NCBI GenBank assembly: GCA_017405085.1
Contig: JAFRBB010000026.1
Location: 1-64,000 of the forward strand
Origin: Eubacteriaceae bacterium
GTDB taxonomy: Bacteria > Bacillota > Clostridia > Eubacteriales > Eubacteriaceae
Direction: 5' to 3'
Length of the DNA: 64,000 nucleotides
Positions 24,217 to 34,861 of this stretch are shown one piece after another. The translations under genes and the position numbers were made by a program. How positions within the stretch are numbered: position 1 is the first letter of the stretch; every line of letters begins with the position of its first letter. Under the pieces are notes generated by a model that was given only the letters and a program-made list of their open reading frames with translations, had not been told where the DNA came from and did not search any database.

Positions 24217-26412
24217 TCATTTACTGCGTTTACTATCGTTGTTTTCGTCAACCATTTCAACCTTTCCGTCTATTTTGACGGCCGCGGCGGACGGATCTGC
24301 CGTGTATTGTTTGGCAAAATCGTTGGCGATGGCTTCGGCTTCTTCTTTCACATTGATAAAGGCCTCGGCGACCACCGGATCAAAATGGGATCCGGCATCT
24401 TCCTGAATGATGGCAAAGGCTTTTTCGTAGGTAAAGGCTTTTTTATACACCCGGGGCGAGACCAATGCGTCAAAGACATCGGCAACGGCCATGATGCGCG
24501 CCGACAGCGGAATGTCTTCGCCGGCAAGGCCTTCGGGATATCCGCGGCCGTTCCATTTTTCGTGGTGATAATGGGCGATGTTTTCGGCTTCTTCCAAATA
24601 GTCGGAATCGGGAAGCTTGGAGATGACCTTCTCGATGATTTCCGCTCCGGCAGTGGTGTGGGTTTTCATGATGTCGAATTCTTCGTCTGTCAATTTACCG
24701 GGTTTGTTTAAGATGTTATCGGAGACGGAAATCTTGCCGATATCGTGAAGCGGTGCCGATTTGATGACGTTGGAGATATATTCGTCGGTGAGGACATCAG
24801 TGAAGTGCCCCGTGCGTCGGAGTTCTTCCATGATGATGCCGGTATACGCAGCGGTTTTCCGCACGTGTTCACCGGTGGAGGAATCGCGGTTTTCCACCAT
24901 GTCGGCCAGCACCATAATCAAACCGTTTTGCAATTCGGCAAAGGCATCGGCCTGAGCCTGCATGTCGTTGTAGAATTTGGCTGAATTTTGGATGGCTTCA
25001 GAAAAGGCGTGATACAGGTTTTCCAGTTCGTCCCCGGTTTCGATTTGAAGCGTGTTGAGGGTGTGCTCGTTTTTCTCCAGAGCGTCCTTGTCGTGATACT
25101 TAAATTTGCCGGTGATGAAGGCCATGGAGTTGACGGGATAAATGATGTTGTATCGAGCCAGCCACAGCGCAAAGGACAGGATGAGGATGAGGAAGCTAAA
25201 GCCTAAGGACAATAACTTCATAATGAAGTCGGTTTGATAGACGTTCAAATCCTCCATGGAGATGTCCGCGCAGGCATAAGCTTTGCAGTTGCCTTTTTTG
25301 TCATAGATGGGCTCATAGACGGTGAGCAGATAGCCAAAGGTGTCGTTGGTGATGATGGGATCGATGCGGTCTCCGGCCAACAGGGTCGGCAACAGATGAT
25401 TGAAGCTTTCGTCGAAAGGAACGATGTCTCCGGGATTGCCGCCGGGGGTCTCCTTGGTATCGAGATCGAAGACCACGTGACAGCCGTCGTTTTCGATACG
25501 ATAGACATAAAGATACAGAACGTCCGGTGTGTTATCGCGGATATTGTACAGGAGATCTTCGGTTTCTTTGTAGCCCGGGGCTTTTTCGCCGTTTTTGATA
25601 TAATCGTCAATTTTGTCGGGATCGATGGCGTCGGAGACGATGCCGGTGATTCCTTTGGCGTTTTTGGCGTGCTCATCAATCGTTGTTTGACGGAACAGCA
25701 TGAAGCTGATGTAGGTGATGACGATGGCGATGGCCAGACAGGCTGCCATAATGACGACGACAATGCGCATGCCCAAAGATGCCCTACGGCATTCGGTGTG
25801 GTTGATGGCGTAAAGATCATCATCGTAGAGCGGATTTTGTTTCCAGCCGCGGAATTTGACCTTTTGTTTGATCGAATCCGGAACGTTGAGATAGATGAGC
25901 AACGCGATCGCCGTGCTGATGGCTTTGTCGCCAAGATCGACAATAAAAGCAGTGATGAGATTGGCAGGGAAAAGGGGAATGCCGTAGCCGGCCAAGGTGT
26001 TGACCATTTCTCCGTTAAATCCGCCGACAGCGGTGCCGTCGGCAATCCAGGTGATGATGCCGCCCAGCACACCACCGATGAAAGCGATGATGATTACATA
26101 GAGCAGAATCATGGTCCATTTTTTGAAATAGCCGCGCTTGCGGAACATGACCGTCACAACGGCAATGAGGACATTTAAAATACCGTAATAGGCCGTGGTG
26201 GGCGCGCCGATGGACGCGATCAGATTGGTGGCGATGGCCACGGTGATCCCGGGAACATAGCTGCTGAAAGCCGAGACGATAATCGTGCCGATGGTGTCAA
26301 AGAAAAAAGGAAGTCCGGTTTGGCCGATCAGCCTATTGAGTCCCAAGTTGAGCGCAATGCCGGCAAGCATTAAAAAAAACACTCTGAGATTGGAACGCGT
26401 TTGTTCACTCAT
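24217..26412 (-). CDS. Membrane HD-GYP phosphodiesterase with a transporter-like N-terminus
   Basis: The 731-residue protein starts with about five to six membrane helices (10-190) that resemble ECF substrate-binding components. A separate helix (about 218-243), an extracytoplasmic sensor domain and another helix (about 408-430) follow. Then come a HAMP-like linker and an HD-GYP domain (about 505-690). Catalytic markers are present: SAPLHDIGKIS, HHEKWNGRGYPEGL (the GYP variant), and DVFDAL. It likely degrades cyclic-di-GMP in response to a ligand. The diguanylate cyclase at 33728 would make the same messenger. The N-terminal fold is unusual for the class. Confidence 0.85.
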   Translation of the reverse strand: MSEQTRSNLRVFFLMLAGIALNLGLNRLIGQTGLPFFFDTIGTIIVSAFSSYVPGITVAIATNLIASIGAPTTAYYGILNVLIAVVTVMFRKRGYFKKWTMILLYVIIIAFIGGVLGGIITWIADGTAVGGFNGEMVNTLAGYGIPLFPANLITAFIVDLGDKAISTAIALLIYLNVPDSIKQKVKFRGWKQNPLYDDDLYAINHTECRRASLGMRIVVVIMAACLAIAIVITYISFMLFRQTTIDEHAKNAKGITGIVSDAIDPDKIDDYIKNGEKAPGYKETEDLLYNIRDNTPDVLYLYVYRIENDGCHVVFDLDTKETPGGNPGDIVPFDESFNHLLPTLLAGDRIDPIITNDTFGYLLTVYEPIYDKKGNCKAYACADISMEDLNVYQTDFIMKLLSLGFSFLILILSFALWLARYNIIYPVNSMAFITGKFKYHDKDALEKNEHTLNTLQIETGDELENLYHAFSEAIQNSAKFYNDMQAQADAFAELQNGLIMVLADMVENRDSSTGEHVRKTAAYTGIIMEELRRTGHFTDVLTDEYISNVIKSAPLHDIGKISVSDNILNKPGKLTDEEFDIMKTHTTAGAEIIEKVISKLPDSDYLEEAENIAHYHHEKWNGRGYPEGLAGEDIPLSARIMAVADVFDALVSPRVYKKAFTYEKAFAIIQEDAGSHFDPVVAEAFINVKEEAEAIANDFAKQYTADPSAAAVKIDGKVEMVDENNDSKRSK

Positions 26413-26898
26413 GTTTTAGCCTCCTTTGCGGCCGGAACGGCCGCGGGATGAACGTACGCCGCATTTGAATCGGCGTCTATTTCTCATGAAAAATCATGAT
26501 GGAAAATTGATTGAATTTTCGTAAGATGTTTGTTTGGTAAATATAATCTTATTATATCTTTTTTTGCGAATTTTTCCACAGTTTAAAGTGATAAAATGCT
26601 GTATGTATTAAAATTAGTTCATCACAGACGGAAAAACGCGTTGTTTTTTAAGAAAAAATCCTTTATATTGAAAAAATTTATATTAGGATATATACTATAA
26701 CTATTAATGAAGACAAATTTTTCGATGATAATGAGCAGATTCAATTAGCGTTAAGCGATGGCGATCTAACAGGTCTTATCAACAACATTGCTTTGCTTTG
26801 TACAATCGCTTTTGCTTCAATCAATGGCGATGGCGTCCACGGTGGAGCAAAATGCTTTTATAGGCCGGATATTATTTGTCAAAAGTGAGGAAAAACAA
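26413..26898. other. Long leader region upstream of the subtilase gene
   Basis: This 486-bp region contains AT-rich promoter-like boxes near 26668-26705 (for example TATACT and TATAAC) and then about 190 nt before the subtilase start. One frame (about 26670-26888) is open and reads like protein (FFDDNEQIQLALSDGDLTG) but has no start codon. It may be a decayed gene fragment. No known riboswitch was recognised. Confidence 0.4.
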
Positions 26899-29800
26899 AT
26901 GAAAAAAACGTTCATCCTGTTGCTTGTGTTTTGCGCGGCAGCGGGAATCATCGGTGCGGCGGTGTCTGTCGCCGGCACTTCTCAAAATCTCAAAACGCCG
27001 TCAAGCGTCGACGCGGTCATTACATCGACGGCACAGCTTCCGGACATTTCCGAAGACACGCCGATGGCGGAACGGGTTGTCGTGGTTTATCGCGACGGCG
27101 GATCTCTGTCATCCCTTGGATTGACCCAAAAGGACGTGGACGCGGGCAGCGCGGTCTCCGACATGGTGGCGGTTTTCCATCCGGCGGATGGCAATGCCGA
27201 GGCCCTCATCGCCCGACTCAAAGCCAATGCGCAGGTTGAGTCGGCCTTTGCCGATGACGTCGTGCCCTGCATGGCCATGCCCAATGATCCCGAAATGAGT
27301 TCGACTTCGAACAATGTTGTCGCGAGAAGTGTCTACACCGTCACGGGTGCCGATCACACCTGGCGTCAGGTCAACGGCAACAGCCCAGTGAAAGTTGCGG
27401 TGGTGGACACGGGCTGCAATATTAATCACGAAGATCTTTCGGGCAGAACCGAAAACGTGATTGACGAATATTATATCAAAAATCAAGGGACGAGTGCCAA
27501 TGACTTAGCCTATCACGGCACCCAAGTCTGCGGCATCCTCGCGGCTTCGACCAATAACAGCAAGGGCATCGCCGGCATGGCGGGAACAGCCAATGTGAAG
27601 CTTGTGCCCTATCGCTGCGGCGGAACGTATCAGGATGATACCGATTTGAAATTGTCTTGCATCACCGCGTCGCTCAAAGATATAGAAGATAAAAGTGACA
27701 TTAAAGTGGTCAACATGTCCTTTGGCGCCATTGAAGGCGAAGCCGCGGCAGAGACAATTAATCAAATTCAATCGGCAGTGGCTCGCTGTGTCGCCAAAGG
27801 CAAGATCATGGTGGCTTCGGCGGGAAACAACGGCCATGATAACAGTACTCATCGAAACAATTTAGTCTATCCCGCGGCCTGTGACGGCGTGATTGCCGTC
27901 GGCGGCGTAAGCTGTGCCGGAGGCGGCGTGACCCATTGGGAAGGCTCTCCCGAAAACAGCAGTATTGACGTGGTGGCGCCGGCTTACTGCGTGCGTTCGA
28001 CCTATACGGGGAATAATTACACGACCAATACCGGCACGTCCTTCGCCGCTCCCGTCGTTGCCGGAGAAGCGGCAATGCTCCTTGCGGATAATCCGAATTT
28101 GACGGCGGCTCAAGTGACCGAGCTCATCACGTCGACGGCTTCGGATATGGGCGCTTCCGGAAAAGATGATACCTATGGCTACGGCCTTGTGCAATTTGAT
28201 AAGGCCCTTGCCAAAGCGCAAAATCATAAATGCGGCAACGCTTTGTATTGGCAGGTGTCTTCTGACGGAAGAACCCTGACCATTATGGGTTCCGGAGCGA
28301 TGACAAACTTCGCGGATGCTTCGTCTGTGCCGTGGCATGCCAGCGCGGGCACCATCGAGACCGTGGAGCTTCCGGCCGGTCTGACCAATATTGGGGATTA
28401 TGCGCTATCCGGCATGACGTCTCTGACAAGTGTTACCATTCCCGAAAGCGTTACGGTCATCGGAAAAGGCGCTTTTATGGGGGACAATCAGCTTTCCGCG
28501 CTCAATGACGGCGTGAACACGTCAAACAACGGCACGCCAATCAACATTCCAAACGGCATTGTCAGCATCGGTGAGAAATCCTTTGACGGCTGCTCGGCCT
28601 TTTCGTCGGTTTATCTTCCGGCGAGTGTCTCAGGCATCGGTGCCGGCGCTTTTGACGACTGCGAAAACCTCGAAGCTTTTATTGTTGACGCGTCGAATCA
28701 AAACTTTACGGCGGCAGACGGTGTCCTCTTCAACAAAAGCGGCACTGCTTTGGTACGTTATCCGGAAAATAAAACCGGAGAATCTTTTGCGGTTCAAAAT
28801 ACGGTCACAACCATTGCCGCCGGCGCCTTCGCCGATAGCAAAAACCTCACAAGCTTAACCATTCCCGAAACGGTCAAAACCGTCGGGGATAACGCGTTTA
28901 TCGATTCTAAAATTAACACGGTATACGGAACGACAAATAGCGCCGCGCAGATTGCCGTAGCCAAACACAACAGCGATCAGTCAAATAAGATTACCTTTGT
29001 AAATGAAAACAAAGAATCAGAAATCAAGGCTTATCCCTTGGCGTCTCTCTATAAAATGACGCCCACATCGGTCACGGAAAACGGCAGTCCCGTTTCGGTG
29101 ACGGTAAACGCCGCACCAGATGCCGGACAATTTACCGCGGTGAAATATAACGGATCGAGTACCGCCCCGTCGGCGCCGGGCGCGTATACTGTCACTGTTG
29201 ATACCGAGGCCAACGCTTCCTACATCGCGGCCAGCAACCTTGCCATCGGGACGCTGACGATCAAAGCCAAACCCGCACCGCCCTCCGGCGGCGGCGGAGG
29301 TGGCGGAGGCGGCGGTTCATCGACTCCCGCCACGACGGAAAAAGTACAGCCGACAGCTTCGCTCTATGTGCTTACGCCCTCTGAGGCCGAAGCGACGGGC
29401 GAGCCGATCGCCGTGAAGGTGACGGCTGCCGAAGGTGAGAATATTGGAGAGGTAACCGCGATAACCATCACCGATGCCGAAGGCAACGCGGTTGCGCAAA
29501 TTGTTGAGCCCGGCGTTTATACCGTTGCCGTCGACACGGCAGAGACCGATGTTTACACGGCGGCAAAAGGGCTTGTGGTCGGAACGGTTAATGTGACCGA
29601 AAAGGTCGAGCCTCAGCCATCTCCCGAGGAAACGATTATCCCGGTAGTCTATTACCGCGCCCATGTGCAGAATATCGGCTGGCAACGCTATGACGGAAAC
29701 GAATGGCAAACGGCCAACACCGGTGATGATGTGGGAACCCACGGCCAAAGTCTTCGCATGGAAGCCATTGAGATCGCGGTTCCGGAAGACTATGAAATTG

Positions 29801-30111
29801 CCGGCATTGCCCATGTGCAAAACCTCGGCGATATCCATGTGAAAAAAGATCGAAGCGTCTCGCTGACCGGTGCCGATGGCAAAGAAATACCCTATGATGT
29901 CTATTTCCTCGGTACGACAGGCAAGGGCCTTCGCGTGGAGGCAATGCAGATCAACATGATGAAAGGCGGAGAATCAATCGACTTCGACTTGTCCTACGAA
30001 ACCCATGTTCAAAATATCGGCTGGATGGGTTTTGTGCCCTGCGGCGGATTCGCCGGAACAAAAGGACAGGGCCTTCGCATGGAAGCGCTTCGGATGCGAG
30101 TTCGTGAATAA
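26899..30111 (+). CDS. Secreted S8 subtilase with BspA-type leucine-rich and ChW repeats
   Basis: The start is ATG 26899 after GTGAGGAAAAACAA. The 1070-residue protein has a signal peptide (about 1-27). An S8 peptidase domain follows with Asp170 (VAVVDTGC), His206 (YHGTQVCGIL) and Ser381 (TGTSFAAPVVAGEAAM). Then come BspA-type leucine-rich repeats (about 490-640) and two related beta repeats of about 85 residues, split by a Gly10 linker near residue 800. Three ChW repeats (about 917-1069) close the protein, each with AHVQN-type starts and GLRMEA-type ends. It is likely a cell-surface or extracellular protease. The ChW repeats suggest surface attachment. There is no LPXTG sorting signal. Confidence 0.9.
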   Translation: MKKTFILLLVFCAAAGIIGAAVSVAGTSQNLKTPSSVDAVITSTAQLPDISEDTPMAERVVVVYRDGGSLSSLGLTQKDVDAGSAVSDMVAVFHPADGNAEALIARLKANAQVESAFADDVVPCMAMPNDPEMSSTSNNVVARSVYTVTGADHTWRQVNGNSPVKVAVVDTGCNINHEDLSGRTENVIDEYYIKNQGTSANDLAYHGTQVCGILAASTNNSKGIAGMAGTANVKLVPYRCGGTYQDDTDLKLSCITASLKDIEDKSDIKVVNMSFGAIEGEAAAETINQIQSAVARCVAKGKIMVASAGNNGHDNSTHRNNLVYPAACDGVIAVGGVSCAGGGVTHWEGSPENSSIDVVAPAYCVRSTYTGNNYTTNTGTSFAAPVVAGEAAMLLADNPNLTAAQVTELITSTASDMGASGKDDTYGYGLVQFDKALAKAQNHKCGNALYWQVSSDGRTLTIMGSGAMTNFADASSVPWHASAGTIETVELPAGLTNIGDYALSGMTSLTSVTIPESVTVIGKGAFMGDNQLSALNDGVNTSNNGTPINIPNGIVSIGEKSFDGCSAFSSVYLPASVSGIGAGAFDDCENLEAFIVDASNQNFTAADGVLFNKSGTALVRYPENKTGESFAVQNTVTTIAAGAFADSKNLTSLTIPETVKTVGDNAFIDSKINTVYGTTNSAAQIAVAKHNSDQSNKITFVNENKESEIKAYPLASLYKMTPTSVTENGSPVSVTVNAAPDAGQFTAVKYNGSSTAPSAPGAYTVTVDTEANASYIAASNLAIGTLTIKAKPAPPSGGGGGGGGGGSSTPATTEKVQPTASLYVLTPSEAEATGEPIAVKVTAAEGENIGEVTAITITDAEGNAVAQIVEPGVYTVAVDTAETDVYTAAKGLVVGTVNVTEKVEPQPSPEETIIPVVYYRAHVQNIGWQRYDGNEWQTANTGDDVGTHGQSLRMEAIEIAVPEDYEIAGIAHVQNLGDIHVKKDRSVSLTGADGKEIPYDVYFLGTTGKGLRVEAMQINMMKGGESIDFDLSYETHVQNIGWMGFVPCGGFAGTKGQGLRMEALRMRVRE

Positions 30112-30220
30112 ACGGCCGCGTTTTTAAGAAAACACAACGTTGCTTTACAGCGAAACGGTAGTCAAGACGATATTATACGGTTCAAAAAGTCATATTTTTT
30201 GAAAAAATCATTAAAATATA

Positions 30221-30260
30221 AAAAACGGGAGCGTTTATTTGACCGAATTCCCGTTTTTTT
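30221..30260 (+). terminator. Intrinsic terminator of the subtilase gene
   Basis: Arms AAAAACGGGA (30221-30230) and TCCCGTTTTT (30249-30258) are followed by further Ts. Confidence 0.85.
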
Positions 30261-30305
30261 GATATAATCACACGGTCACAAGAAAAAAATTCTAAAAAAT
30301 TTTGA

Positions 30306-30339
30306 ATGTGACCGTGATGTGACTATACCCGCTTATAAT
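30306..30339 (+). promoter_or_regulatory. Promoter of the SipW/TasA-like operon with paired ATGTGAC repeats
   Basis: Two ATGTGAC copies (30306-30312 and 30317-30323) lie 11 bp apart. A perfect TATAAT -10 box begins 11 bp after the second copy (30334-30339). There is no TTGACA -35, so activation by a bound regulator is likely. An inverted GTCACAA (30275-30281) lies upstream. The promoter of the TasA-like gene at 32571 has exactly the same spacing. Confidence 0.65.
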
Positions 30340-30396
30340 ACGAATAAGATTAATGATGGATAAAAAGATTATTATGTATAATCAGAAAGGTCAGGC

Positions 30397-30936
30397 ATGC
30401 GGACAGTATATAAAATATTCACAAATATCATATTGGTTGTGCTCATCGCGTTGGCTGTGCTCTTGATCGTCCCCAGGTTCATCGGTATGACGCCAATGGC
30501 CGTCCTCTCCGGATCCATGGAGCCCACCTATCATGTCGGCAGCATGTTGTATGTCAAGTCTGAGAAGCCTGAGAACATCAAACAAGGCGATCCGATCACT
30601 TTCAAGATCAGCGACAGCACCATGGTAACCCATAGAGTCATCGCCATCGACACCGCGGGCCAGTGCTTTTACACCAAAGGGGACAACAACGATGTGCCCG
30701 ACGGCGGAAGCGTTGCCTACGCCAATCTCGTCGGAAAACCGGTTTTCAGTCTTCCCCTGCTGGGATACTTAGCGGTGTACGCGTCCAGCACCTCAGGAAT
30801 TATCATTATGGTCTGCGCCATTCTGATTGTGTTGATTCTGACTTTCCTTCCGGATTTCCTTTTTTCGGACGATAAAAAAGAAAACGCCGAAGAAAATAAA
30901 AACGAAGAGAAACAAAAAAGGAGAAAGAAGAAATGA
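30397..30936 (+). CDS. SipW-type signal peptidase I
   Basis: This 179-residue membrane protease has two membrane helices (about 9-27 and 132-153) and the ER-type catalytic pattern of SipW. Ser40 is in LSGSMEPT and His79 in VTHRVIAID, in place of the Lys of ordinary bacterial signal peptidases. In Bacillus subtilis SipW processes the biofilm protein TasA. Its stop overlaps the start of a TasA-like gene by 4 bp, so it probably cleaves the proteins encoded next to it. A lysine-rich cytoplasmic tail ends the protein. Confidence 0.9.
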   Translation: MRTVYKIFTNIILVVLIALAVLLIVPRFIGMTPMAVLSGSMEPTYHVGSMLYVKSEKPENIKQGDPITFKISDSTMVTHRVIAIDTAGQCFYTKGDNNDVPDGGSVAYANLVGKPVFSLPLLGYLAVYASSTSGIIIMVCAILIVLILTFLPDFLFSDDKKENAEENKNEEKQKRRKKK

Positions 30937-31670
30937 GTTTACCGGATAAAATCAAAAACAAGAAAGGTATCGTCATTGCGGTTATTGCGTTGATTGCCGT
31001 GGCAATCGGCGGTGGCGCGACTTTAGCTTATTTCTCCAGCACAACTGCTCAGGCTCACAATGAGTTTAAAGGCGCGGCCGTCAACATTTCGGTCATTGAA
31101 AATGAAGCGCAACTGGATCAGAACAATAAAGAATCTGAAGACGAAACGGGTAACGGCAACGTCGCGACCTTCTCATCGGTTTCCAACGGCACGCAAGTTC
31201 CCAAAATTGTCCGCATCAAAAATAAGGACACCAACGACTATCACACGGTTGACACCTATGTGCGGGTGCGTTTGGTTCCCAAACTGGTCTATGATGACAA
31301 TAATACCGAAGGTTATGCCGGCCAGACGGCGGTGGATCTCAAACCCGATCAGGTGACCTACACCTTCGCGGATAACCTTGCTGATACATGGGATGCCCAA
31401 ACCGTCAGCGCCAACGGCAAGAATCAAACCTACTATTATTATAAAGAAGCCATCAAACCCGGCGAGCTTTCAAGTGTGTTGTTGACAGCGGTTCAATACA
31501 ACGGCACCATTCCTCAAGGACAACATTTTGAACTGGAAGTGCTCACCGAGGGCATCGCGGCCGGACAGCACAGCATGACAGAGACAGATCCGGAAACAGG
31601 AGTTTCGACGGAAAAAGAAGTCCGCGCTGATTACATGACTGCTTGGAACGAAGTTTTAGGTAAAAAATAA
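30933..31670 (+). CDS. TasA/CalY-like secreted protein with SipW-type signal peptide (1)
   Basis: This 245-residue protein begins with a signal peptide of the SipW-cognate class: a helix about 11-31 ending in GGGATLAYFSST. The mature part is acidic and probably beta-rich (TYVRVRLVPKLVYDD, HFELEVLTEGIA), like TasA-type proteins that polymerise into matrix fibres. It overlaps the signal peptidase gene by 4 bp. Assembly into fibres is inference. Confidence 0.8.
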   Translation: MSLPDKIKNKKGIVIAVIALIAVAIGGGATLAYFSSTTAQAHNEFKGAAVNISVIENEAQLDQNNKESEDETGNGNVATFSSVSNGTQVPKIVRIKNKDTNDYHTVDTYVRVRLVPKLVYDDNNTEGYAGQTAVDLKPDQVTYTFADNLADTWDAQTVSANGKNQTYYYYKEAIKPGELSSVLLTAVQYNGTIPQGQHFELEVLTEGIAAGQHSMTETDPETGVSTEKEVRADYMTAWNEVLGKK

Positions 31671-31682
31671 GGAGGCTGAACG

Positions 31683-32345
31683 ATGAGTAAACGAACAAAA
31701 ATCACAGCGATTGTTATCGTCATCGCAGCCGCGGCCATCATAGCGGCCGGAGCTACTTTGGCCTATTTCACCGCTGACGGCGGAACAAAAACCAACACCT
31801 TTTCCACCGGCAGCGTGACGGTTGAATTGCGTGAACCCACCTGGGACGGTTATAATTTTGGTGATCCGCACGTTTCCGATGGGCAATCCGCTGCTTCAAA
31901 CGATCCGTCTTTAGGTTTCAATCAAGCGCAGAAATACGGCCCCGGCGATGTCATTTCCAAAGATCCGCAGGTTAAAAACACCGATAAGGTGGTTGCTTGG
32001 GTGGCCATCAAAGTCAATTATAGTTTGAACGGAGGTCCTTTAACCTATTCAGATTTCCAAAGCAAGCTTTTGACCAATAACGGGTTGGATTTTGATCTAA
32101 GCAATTGGACACTTCTAAAAGACGAAGGCACAAAGGGCCAACTTTATCTGTATAAAACCAAATTGGAAAAAGACCAAACCACAGGAAAACTTTTTACAAA
32201 AGTGCCGATTGCCTTTGGCGGACTTGAGTTGATTGATGGAAAACTTCCGACCTTCGCCATCGACGCTCAAGGATTCGGTGTCCAAGCCGAAAATATCACG
32301 CCGGAAAAAGCGCAAGAAGAACTGATCAACTTAGCTTTTAATTAA
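31683..32345 (+). CDS. TasA/CalY-like secreted protein with SipW-type signal peptide (2)
   Basis: This 220-residue protein has the same signal-peptide class (AAGATLAYFTADGGTKTNTF) followed by FSTGSVTVELREPTW, a close match to the mature N-terminus of TasA/CalY-type proteins. VKNTDKVVAWVAIKV resembles the conserved core. It lies 12 bp downstream of protein 1, with AGGAGGCTGAACG before the start, so it is in the same operon. Confidence 0.85.
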   Translation: MSKRTKITAIVIVIAAAAIIAAGATLAYFTADGGTKTNTFSTGSVTVELREPTWDGYNFGDPHVSDGQSAASNDPSLGFNQAQKYGPGDVISKDPQVKNTDKVVAWVAIKVNYSLNGGPLTYSDFQSKLLTNNGLDFDLSNWTLLKDEGTKGQLYLYKTKLEKDQTTGKLFTKVPIAFGGLELIDGKLPTFAIDAQGFGVQAENITPEKAQEELINLAFN

Positions 32346-32393
32346 ACAAAACGAAAAACACAAAAAGTCACAATTTTTTCAAAAGAGTTTGAT

Positions 32394-32427
32394 ATGTGAC
32401 TCCCATGTGACTTTGGTCTGATATCAT
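32394..32427 (+). promoter_or_regulatory. Second promoter with paired ATGTGAC repeats
   Basis: ATGTGAC copies at 32394-32400 and 32405-32411 are again 11 bp apart. TATCAT (32422-32427) begins 11 bp after the second copy, exactly the geometry seen at 30306-30339. A GTCACAA motif lies at 32367-32373. It probably drives the third TasA-like gene from about 32434. Confidence 0.65.
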
Positions 32428-32570: not shown

Positions 32571-33200
32571 ATGGCAAAATCAAAGAAAATCGCAATCGTT
32601 GTAGCCGCTATCGCGCTCATCGCGGTCATCGGCGTTGTCGGAAGCACATTAGCTTACTTCACAGATAACGATCAAAAGACAAACACCTTCACAATGGGTA
32701 ATGTCAACGGAACATTGGAAGAAATCAAAAATGATGGAAGCGAAGAGCTTGTTACTGAAGAAGGTTTAACGTTCGACAATGTGACACCGAATGCTGAACT
32801 CGTCAAAAGAGCGTTCATGCAATTAGGAAATGATTCCTCCGACGCTTATGCTCGTGTTAAATTAACATGGGATACCACTGGTATGACTCAGGAACAAATT
32901 GATGCTTTCAATGCGCAACTCCCGAGCTTCCTTCCCGTTGGACAAGGTTGGGTCGAAGGAACAGACGGCTATTATTACTATCAAACAAAACTTAGCAAAG
33001 GCGATAAAACAGTCAATGTCATTGATAAGGTTACTATCCCCGCTGAATGGGGCAATGTGATGGCCAATGCTAGTTTCAAACTCAAAGTCGAAGGCGACTT
33101 CATCCAGGCTGATAACTTTGAACCTACTAAAGACGCATCCGGTAACATCGTCAGCTGGGGCCAGGTCACAATCGAACAATTCCAAGCTCCGCAACAGTAA
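32571..33200 (+). CDS. TasA/CalY-like secreted protein with SipW-type signal peptide (3)
   Basis: This 209-residue protein carries VVGSTLAYFTDNDQKTNTF, the SipW-type signal end, and then FTMGNVNGTLEEI. GGAAAGATC-like leader sequence and AGAGAGAGAAACA precede its start. It has its own promoter and a 220-bp leader, so it can be made at a level different from the first two. Mature segments (AYARVKLTWDTT, YYYYQTKLSKGD) align with protein 2 in spirit. Confidence 0.85.
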   Translation: MAKSKKIAIVVAAIALIAVIGVVGSTLAYFTDNDQKTNTFTMGNVNGTLEEIKNDGSEELVTEEGLTFDNVTPNAELVKRAFMQLGNDSSDAYARVKLTWDTTGMTQEQIDAFNAQLPSFLPVGQGWVEGTDGYYYYQTKLSKGDKTVNVIDKVTIPAEWGNVMANASFKLKVEGDFIQADNFEPTKDASGNIVSWGQVTIEQFQAPQQ

Positions 33201-33281: not shown

Positions 33282-33497
33282 ATGGATGACTTGAGTAACA
33301 ATATTCGCATAATCTCAGTTGGAAAAGAAACCTTCATGATTAAGTATATGTATCATCAGAATCATACCAATCATGGGACAATCTACAGATTGTCCACCAA
33401 AACCACTTTGGGTTTCCGCTCCGACTTGGAACTTATCCGCATTTTGGAATCGGTTGTCGATGTTAATGACTGGTATCCTCAAATGCAAATCGTTTAA
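33282..33497 (+). CDS. Small conserved protein of the RQN...FRS-LEL type
   Basis: This 71-residue protein matches, from memory, an unnamed small-protein family common in Clostridia. Such proteins share F-x-I-K-x-x-Y-x-Q-N, a Gly-Thr-Ile segment and FRS-x-LEL-I. Here these appear as FMIKYMYHQNHTNHGTI and FRSDLELIRILESV. There is no signal peptide. It sits 81 bp after the third TasA-like gene and just before a strong terminator. Function unknown; linkage to matrix production is only positional. Confidence 0.6.
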   Translation: MDDLSNNIRIISVGKETFMIKYMYHQNHTNHGTIYRLSTKTTLGFRSDLELIRILESVVDVNDWYPQMQIV

Positions 33498-33537: not shown

Positions 33538-33658
33538 CATGGAAGACGGACAAATAACCTGTTGACTTATTATCACAAAATCATATTTCGTGTTGAAATA
33601 TCAACCGACAGCCTTTATACTTAAAAGAAACCAAAAAAATATTTCGGTCACAAAAATC

Positions 33659-33727: not shown

Positions 33728-34861
33728 ATGAAACCTTCTTTTTTGTATATCGAAGCGGATATCGTCTGCATCATCGCGATGATATACTTGATCATCAGAA
33801 ATAATAGGCGGGTTGATCAACAGGAAAGCACACGCTATTTCACGGCGACAACGATCATGTTTGTCTGCACCATGGTTGCCGATCTCTTGTGGACCATCAT
33901 CGATACAGACATTTATGTTCAAAATAAATCAACTCTATATATTAGCAATATCTTTCTATATGTGAGCATGTGCCTGCTGACTTATTATTTGTATCGATAT
34001 ATGCTCGCCGCGGTCAAATATAATGAAACCAGTTCCGAAAAACGCAAACGGGCAGCCATTCCTTTTGTGATTAGCGTGATCGTTGTGTTGACCACGCCGC
34101 TGACCGGATGGATGGTCTATCTCAACCAAGACATGAAAATCGAGCCCGGCATTCTCTTTTTCCCCGTGATTATCATGGCAATGGGTCATGTGATCTACGC
34201 GGCGATCATCGCCATCAAACAGAGCCAAAAGGTAGAGTATTATCCGGACCGCAAATTTTACCGCGTGGTGGCCTTCGCACCGCTCATCACAGCGATTGCC
34301 GGCGGCGCGCAAAGTTTGATTTGGCAGTGGCCGATCATGTGCTACGGCTTGGTGGCGACGGCGTTTTTGATCTATGACAACAGACAAGAGCATCTCATTT
34401 CCCAGGATGCCCTGACAGGGCTCAACAACCGCAACGAGCTCTACCGCGTTTTGGTGAATAAAATGGAACGAGATGATAATGATCCGATTTATCTGTTCTT
34501 TATTGATATGGATAAATTCAAAGAGATCAACGATCGATACGGGCACAATGAAGGGGACAAAGCTTTGATTTGTGTGGCCGATGCCCTGAAAGACGCGGCC
34601 AAACAAGCTAAATCCCGCTGCTTTATCTGCCGATACGGCGGGGATGAATTTATCATCGTGTCCGAGTCGACGTCCGATGCCGAGCATCTGCCGGATTGGG
34701 TGAGAGACAGCCTCCAGAAAAAAGTGATTGATAATCATCTCAAATATCCGCTTAAGGTGAGTATCGGAAAAGCGATGCATGAACATGGCGAAATCTCCAT
34801 TTCGGATTTCATCAAAGAAGCCGACAATCACATGTACAACGCGAAAATAAGCGCCAGATAA
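33728..34861 (+). CDS. Membrane diguanylate cyclase (GGDEF)
   Basis: The 377-residue protein has six to seven N-terminal membrane helices (about 5-220) of an unassigned 7TM-like sensor and a C-terminal GGDEF domain. Hallmarks are DALTGLNNRNEL, FFIDMDKFKEINDRYGHNEGD and the intact active site RYGGDEFII. It should make cyclic-di-GMP. No RxxD inhibitory site was confirmed. It lies directly after the TasA-like unit and could link matrix protein levels to second-messenger signalling, with the HD-GYP protein at 24217 as opposing enzyme. Confidence 0.9.
   Translation: MKPSFLYIEADIVCIIAMIYLIIRNNRRVDQQESTRYFTATTIMFVCTMVADLLWTIIDTDIYVQNKSTLYISNIFLYVSMCLLTYYLYRYMLAAVKYNETSSEKRKRAAIPFVISVIVVLTTPLTGWMVYLNQDMKIEPGILFFPVIIMAMGHVIYAAIIAIKQSQKVEYYPDRKFYRVVAFAPLITAIAGGAQSLIWQWPIMCYGLVATAFLIYDNRQEHLISQDALTGLNNRNELYRVLVNKMERDDNDPIYLFFIDMDKFKEINDRYGHNEGDKALICVADALKDAAKQAKSRCFICRYGGDEFIIVSESTSDAEHLPDWVRDSLQKKVIDNHLKYPLKVSIGKAMHEHGEISISDFIKEADNHMYNAKISAR

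Follow-up and report, generated by a model that had tools for sequence, protein, structure and literature searches.

Two promoters of a BsaA/TasA-like matrix gene cluster in a Eubacteriaceae genome carry the same pair of direct repeats, TGTGAC-N5-TGTGAC, at a constant distance from the -10 box. It is likely that these pairs are the operators of a SARP-type activator, encoded at C26:650-1882 in the same genome, which would switch on matrix and surface genes. We give this reading a probability of about 0.82; there are no binding or expression data.

Paired repeats at two matrix promoters

We have studied a stretch of 64,000 nucleotides, which we call the window. A first-pass annotation, made from the sequence alone, had claimed two identically built promoters without a TTGACA -35 box. 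The claim held exactly: ATGTGAC-N4-ATGTGAC-N10-TATMAT is present at 30306-30339 and at 32394-32427, both on the forward strand. The first one reads TGTGAC-N5-TGTGAC-N10-TATAAT and lies upstream of sipW; the second one ends in TATCAT and lies upstream of the third TasA-like gene. The -10 box was said to begin 11 bp after the second heptamer; this also held, and leaves 10 bases in between. Counted from the first base of the -10 box, the start codon is 63 bp away for sipW and 149 bp away for the third TasA-like gene. A TTGACA-like hexamer was sought at 16-18 bp spacing in both window promoters and was not found: the -35 slot contains CCGTGA/ACCGTG/GACCGT in one and CTCCCA/ACTCCC/GACTCC in the other.

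When up to three mismatches are allowed in the full pattern, only these two places match in the 64-kb window. There are no matches in 100 dinucleotide shuffles of the window, and the number of exact matches expected from base composition is about 2.5e-7. The two copies are 2 kb apart and precede paralogous genes, so that chance, or the recent duplication of a single promoter, might be invoked. Both are all but excluded: the two promoters differ outside the conserved words, the expectation is near zero, and 52 non-redundant sites with diverged flanks are known from this analysis. Looser definitions of the signal were rejected. Single ATGTGAC heptamers are in excess in the window (14 against 5.7 expected), yet matches in coding regions abound; pairs with up to three mismatches are found in numbers at chance level.

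The word GTCACAA had been reported upstream of each pair and it is indeed present, at 30275-30281 and 32367-32373 on the forward strand. The word may be an accessory half-site, inverted with respect to the repeats, and is over-represented before such pairs: GTCACA precedes 9 of the 52 non-redundant sites, whereas mononucleotide shuffles predict 0.3. Its distance is variable and it is not universal. A terminator-like hairpin of the preceding gene overlaps with it in some genomes. In the window there is also an inverted repeat followed by a run of T at about 30220-30262, between the subtilase gene described below and the first operator.

Genes around the paired repeats

The first operator precedes a sipW-type signal peptidase I gene (30397-30936, +), which matches PF10502 and TIGR02228 above their cut-offs and NF046067 (SipW) below cut-off. 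It adjoins genes with SipW-type signal peptides; the corresponding model, TIGR04088 (cognate_SipW), is above cut-off in two of the three and just below it in the third. These genes code for BsaA/TasA-like matrix proteins, all on the forward strand. Protein 1 (30933-31670), SipW-dependent, has TIGR04088 above cut-off and TIGR04090 below it (E 2.7e-7). In protein 2 (31683-32345) both models are below cut-off. Protein 3 (32571-33200), of the camelysin type, lies behind the second operator and has PF12389 and TIGR04088 above cut-off. The second operon ends with a 71-aa open reading frame (33282-33497, +), a single-domain relative of the SARP partner protein discussed below (hmmsearch E 3e-7 within the window). 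The same position is found in the clusters of five other genomes (G005, G009, G018, G022 and G438).

The matrix cluster is flanked by a diguanylate cyclase gene on one side and by a gene for an HD-GYP-type protein on the other. The cyclase (33728-34861, +; PF00990, 117 bits; sequence RCFICRYGGDEF) has an intact GGDEF motif, with no RxxD ahead of it, and is a probable source of c-di-GMP. The HD-GYP-type protein (24217-26412, -; PF13487/PF01966), with the motif HHEKWNGRGYP, is a probable c-di-GMP phosphodiesterase. Both activities are inferred from sequence. The GTCACAA word noted at 33647, before the cyclase, is present in the sequence, but was rejected as a signal: the cyclase has an ordinary promoter, TTGTGC-N17-TATAAT, and no pair. 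The single heptamer noted near ytxH is incidental, as the promoter there is an ordinary one (GTGACA-N18-TATAAT). Just upstream of sipW, at 26896-30111, there is a subtilase which carries BspA-type leucine-rich repeats as well as ChW repeats.

Distribution of the element in the genome and in relatives

The genome is a 2.2-Mb draft from the family of Eubacterium callanderi, E. aggregans and E. barkeri. The genome scan with fixed spacing proposed in the first-pass annotation gave five exact copies of TGTGAC-N5-TGTGAC: C10:5981, C26:5749 on the minus strand, C67:30307, C67:32395 and C67:73446. All five are followed by a TAnnnT -10 box at exactly N10, and the genes behind them all code for TasA/BsaA-like or other secreted proteins. 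C67:30307 and C67:32395 correspond to the two window operons; the C26 pair precedes a TasA-like operon, while C10:5981 and C67:73446 precede genes of large secreted proteins with SpaA domains. The regulon had been underestimated: large surface proteins of the SpaA type belong to it as well, together with a second TasA-like operon and the small partner proteins. At C67:73436 there is an extra TGTGAC, a 10-bp step upstream of the pair at C67:73446. Two imperfect sites possibly belong to the regulon as weaker members: TGTGAC-N5-TGTGTC-N11-TATAAT at C67:136279 (-) (L010), before a polysaccharide-deacetylase-like gene, and TGTGAC-N5-CGTGAC-N10-TAAAAT at C69:17466 (+) (L011), upstream of a response-regulator-type gene.

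The promoters of sipW and tasA in relatives were compared, as had also been proposed, and the element is conserved in Eubacteriaceae and at distant sipW loci. Among 41 relatives the perfect sites are concentrated in nine genomes of four genera, with 2 to 5 sites each; a reversed control pattern has almost no matches. In the nine SARP-bearing Eubacteriaceae genomes 105 TGTGAC pairs have spacings from N1 to N24: 40 of them have N5, and the runner-up spacing has 14. A de novo search was carried out in 76 sipW loci of other Firmicutes, with any hexamer repeated at 11 bp and a -10 box at N10 being accepted. TGTGAC tops all hexamers with 9 cases; no other has more than two. The distant sipW loci with the element belong to Lactonifactor, Merdivicinus, Gallacutalibacter, Caproiciproducens, an Erysipelotrichaceae MAG, Agathobacter and Sharpea.

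The 52 non-redundant sites give the consensus TGTGAC-Y-NNN-R-TGTGAC-N10-TATAAT; a TG one base ahead of the -10 box is partly conserved. The conserved word is therefore TGTGAC and not the heptamer ATGTGAC of the first-pass annotation: the leading A has a frequency of only 0.33 in the first repeat and 0.31 in the second. It might be thought that the repeats are the promoter of an unusual sigma factor, which would need no activator. A constant gap before a -10-like hexamer, without a -35 box, would fit such an alternative sigma. Against it, the consensus of the -10 box is the usual TATAAT, preceded by a partly conserved extended TGn, and a word repeated identically with an 11-bp step is what a tandem dimer typically reads, not a sigma factor; we consider this possibility very unlikely.

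The element does not occur throughout the phylum. In a phylum-wide random sample of 398 genomes there are matches in only six besides our own genome, mostly with poor -10 boxes, and this sample is uninformative on co-occurrence with a regulator. In three loci (L160 5889-11080, L154 12817-17633 and L156 14872-19000) a transglutaminase-domain lipoprotein-like gene is divergent from an operator-driven TasA-like operon. Behind it there are type IV pilus-like genes (PilC- and PilT-like by eye), an arrangement conserved in three genera.

A SARP-type protein as candidate regulator

The regulator had been left unnamed; the gene of our candidate is outside the window, on another contig (C26:650-1882, -). 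It codes for a SARP-type activator of 411 aa with a BTAD domain (PF03704, 79.5 bits, cut-off 22.1), a weak Trans_reg_C match (16.5 bits, under the Pfam cut-off) and a partial GGDEF match. The AlphaFold2 model has a mean pLDDT of 84.6. Residues 13-264 match AfsR (8k60) with Z 20.5 and an rmsd of 4.2 over 242 residues, a region where EmbR also matches; residues 286-409 match GGDEF domains with Z about 13. In this predicted fold the N-terminus is an OmpR-type winged helix followed by the BTAD domain. No receiver domain is present in the model.

The gene lies downstream of the operator-driven TasA-like operon on C26, and in general it is found inside the same cluster as the operator-bearing matrix genes. 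In the 25 genomes of the family a close SARP homologue (E below 1e-120) and at least two perfect sites are found in the same nine genomes, and in none of the other 16 (p 5e-7; by genus 4/4 against 0/5, p 0.008). SipW follows the operator less well than the SARP: one genome, G008 (87% complete), has operators and the SARP without any SipW match. Among 50 further sipW genomes the SARP is present in all seven which have the operator at the sipW locus. In a genome-wide scoring of these 50 distant genomes, 12 of the 18 with the regulator have a good operator, as do 2 of the 32 without it (p 1e-5). This value is only nominal: the genomes are related, and the E and -10 cut-offs of the distant table were chosen after the lists had been seen. 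The other six of the 18 SARP-bearing genomes lack a qualifying site. In Lactonifactor, Gallacutalibacter and the Erysipelotrichaceae MAG a perfect site is found directly after the SARP gene.

Tandem repeats of 11 bp also suit response regulators of the OmpR/PhoB family. The pho box and the WalR site TGTWAH-N5-TGTWAH are direct repeats with an 11-bp period which replace the -35 box. The pair could then be read by such a regulator together with a histidine kinase: SARPs have the same DNA-binding fold, and at least seven Trans_reg_C proteins are present in the genome. However, it is the SARP which lies in the matrix clusters and co-varies with both the presence and the sequence of the operator, while no response regulator is known there; the distributions of the response regulators have not been traced. 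We consider this alternative unlikely. The co-occurrence, the location in the same clusters and the operator geometry of its known relatives make the SARP the best-supported reader of the pair: its role has strong support, without having been demonstrated. The earlier statement that the pair and its spacing, rather than the heptamer, are the signal is supported by the genome scan, the relatives, the spacing histogram and the co-occurrence with this regulator.

Inferred DNA recognition

The known SARP sites are direct repeats with a period of 11 or 22 bp, the 3' repeat being located 8 bp from the -10 box (PMC10936776). Two AfsR protomers sit next to each other on a pair of 11-bp repeats which overlap the -35 region, and contact sigma region 4 (PMC10936776); the 22-bp afs box extends from -40 to -19 (PMC10936776). 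Operators with three repeats are also known (PMC10972967). The presumed operator has a period of 11 and a constant N10, which fits the 8-bp rule approximately if the repeat is counted as 7 bp. When each repeat is taken as an 11-bp unit, 6 bp remain before the -10 box, the same as for the afsS box if the -10 of the latter corresponds to -12 to -7. This exact agreement rests on our own reading of the afsS coordinates.

AfsR contacts bases through Arg92 and Thr88, the latter at -36 (PMC10936776), which, in the repeat beginning at -40, is position 5. In a profile alignment, ungapped in this region, the Asn of the sequence ALKNL in our protein falls on Thr88 and an Arg falls on Arg92; the offset of 20 tag residues in the AfsR numbering was inferred from 8k60. 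In some SARPs the recognition helix has Thr where ours has Asn, and their loci (L249, L254, L266, L268-L274, L284 and L285) have a TGTAAC version of the operator. The base which differs between TGTGAC and TGTAAC is position 5 of the repeat, the position contacted by Thr88. Asn regulators go with TGTGAC and Thr regulators with TGTAAC in 26 out of 26 cases. The rule was noticed in a few loci and then held in new genomes: G442 (Asn) has TGTGAC, while G486, G439, G031 and G038 (Thr) have TGTAAC. One genome, G035, was left out of the 26: its SARPs are of the Asn type with Cys replacing the base-contacting Arg, and it has a single TGTAAC pair with a weak -10 box (CATTAT) and no gene found downstream. 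In a tree the change of residue and the change of base occur together, about two times, one of them on well supported branches. A sign test has only one or two independent pairs, with which significance cannot be reached. Since there are only about two changes in the tree, the match is suggestive and not statistically independent.

The degenerate GGDEF domain

In the C-terminal domain of the SARP the catalytic GG(D/E)EF motif has been lost; SxxQ is found instead (in 47 of 48 homologues at the Glu position). In contrast, the RxxD I-site is kept, with R in 47 and D in 47 of the 48. The C-terminus is a catalytically dead GGDEF domain, in its model-predicted fold, which has kept its I-site residues. 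R350, D353 and the downstream R381 (own numbering) are invariant in our alignment A1, with nearly the spacing of R363, D366 and R395 of PelD from Bacillus cereus, which are needed for binding c-di-GMP (PMC7112168). The I-site also aligns with those of DgcR (RKSD) and of 3ign, both solved with c-di-GMP.

The SARP might read the operator while its GGDEF-like domain is a module for dimerisation or protein binding, or a receptor for another nucleotide. The partner protein is encoded after the SARP and is fused to it in genome G004, so that the C-terminus could take its signal from this partner; furthermore, large SARPs use other ligands, such as ATP for AfsR (PMC10936776), which also fits. On the other side, the three invariant residues have kept a PelD-like spacing while the catalytic motif decayed, the I-site alignment with DgcR points the same way, and the genome has 18 other GGDEF matches. 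On balance we lean against this alternative. That the domain senses c-di-GMP appears probable to us, an inference from the conserved I-site and the gene context; an intact RxxD is no proof of binding. Whether the ligand would activate or repress is not fixed.

A family of small partner proteins

In the genome of the window the partner protein has two domains and is encoded at C26:225-644, directly after the SARP gene; its gene is often under its own operator. There is no Pfam match for it. The predicted structure has tandem beta-beta-beta-alpha repeats, with low confidence (mean pLDDT 60), and a Foldseek search with this model gave no match below E 0.001. Small proteins of the family, with the motif TWQGTI...FRSxLELI, were observed in the window (33282-33497), L150 (10669-11091), L253 (9977-10465), L259 (11335-11892) and L280 (663-1169). 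The family is undescribed, and its members sit beside the SARP or under its operator. They might modulate the SARP, which is no more than a guess.

Proposed mechanism

In the mechanism that we propose the winged helix and BTAD domain of the SARP would bind the two TGTGAC repeats from the same DNA face, as a dimer with its subunits side by side. The dimer would stand in for the -35 box and hold RNA polymerase, probably through sigma region 4, at a promoter which has only a -10 box; this replacement of the -35 contact is proposed by analogy with AfsR. The targets turned on in this way by the SARP would be sipW, the genes of the BsaA/TasA-like matrix proteins and those of other surface proteins. 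As its gene follows an operator-driven operon, the gene order suggests a positive feedback. Finally, the dead GGDEF domain would bind c-di-GMP, which would switch the activator on or off; the conserved I-site and the gene context are the reasons to propose this control. A dedicated activator with two binding sites on one DNA face had been inferred in the first-pass annotation, and the inference stood up to all the computational tests; the binding, the dimer and the activation remain inferred.

A bolder reading, which we slightly prefer to its opposite, is that a widespread system of c-di-GMP-responsive SARP and partner protein in anaerobic Firmicutes reads TGTRAC-N5-TGTRAC-N10-TATAAT and couples c-di-GMP to a SipW/TasA-like regulon, with a single helix residue setting G or A.

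Comparison with known systems

The way in which SipW/TasA-like matrix genes are switched in anaerobic gut Firmicutes is largely open. A named candidate regulator and a likely signal are now offered, with an operator which can be recognised by its sequence alone in many genomes. If our reading is true, the SARP family reaches biofilm control, beyond the antibiotic clusters of Actinobacteria, and a transcription factor joins the degenerate-GGDEF receptors. The correspondence of Asn or Thr with G or A would be a simple amino-acid-to-base rule, testable by single substitutions. SARP activators and the geometry of their operators were already known, as were degenerate GGDEF receptors. In the open-access literature that we searched we found no SARP control of SipW/TasA-like genes, and no description of a BTAD-GGDEF regulator, its regulon or such an operator; within these limits the SARP-GGDEF fusion, its control of the matrix genes and the operator appear to be new.

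The genes themselves resemble sipW-bsaA of Clostridium perfringens and tapA-sipW-tasA of Bacillus subtilis: a SipW peptidase is accompanied by SipW-dependent, fibre-forming matrix proteins. Control of the B. subtilis operon is based on SinR and Spo0A. The operator differs from the pho box of PhoB and from WalR sites in its word, TGTGAC/TGTAAC, and in its phyletic link to a SARP without receiver domain. The SARPs already described (AfsR with its afs box, DnrI, ActII-ORF4, PimR) share with our protein the OmpR-like domain and BTAD, repeats with an 11-bp period which overlap the -35 region near the -10 box, a gene placed inside the controlled cluster, and operators of two or three repeats, as in the third TGTGAC at C67:73436. 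However, they are Streptomyces activators from actinobacterial antibiotic clusters and their C-termini are of the NOD/TPR, FHA or LAL types, whereas our protein would act on biofilm-matrix and surface protein genes of Firmicutes and has a degenerate GGDEF domain as its C-terminus. In this domain the closest likeness is to PelD of Pseudomonas aeruginosa and B. cereus: a GGDEF fold without its catalytic motif, with RxxD and a downstream Arg, and linked to the biofilm matrix. PelD acts after translation on polysaccharide export, while in our case the domain is joined to a DNA-binding activator.
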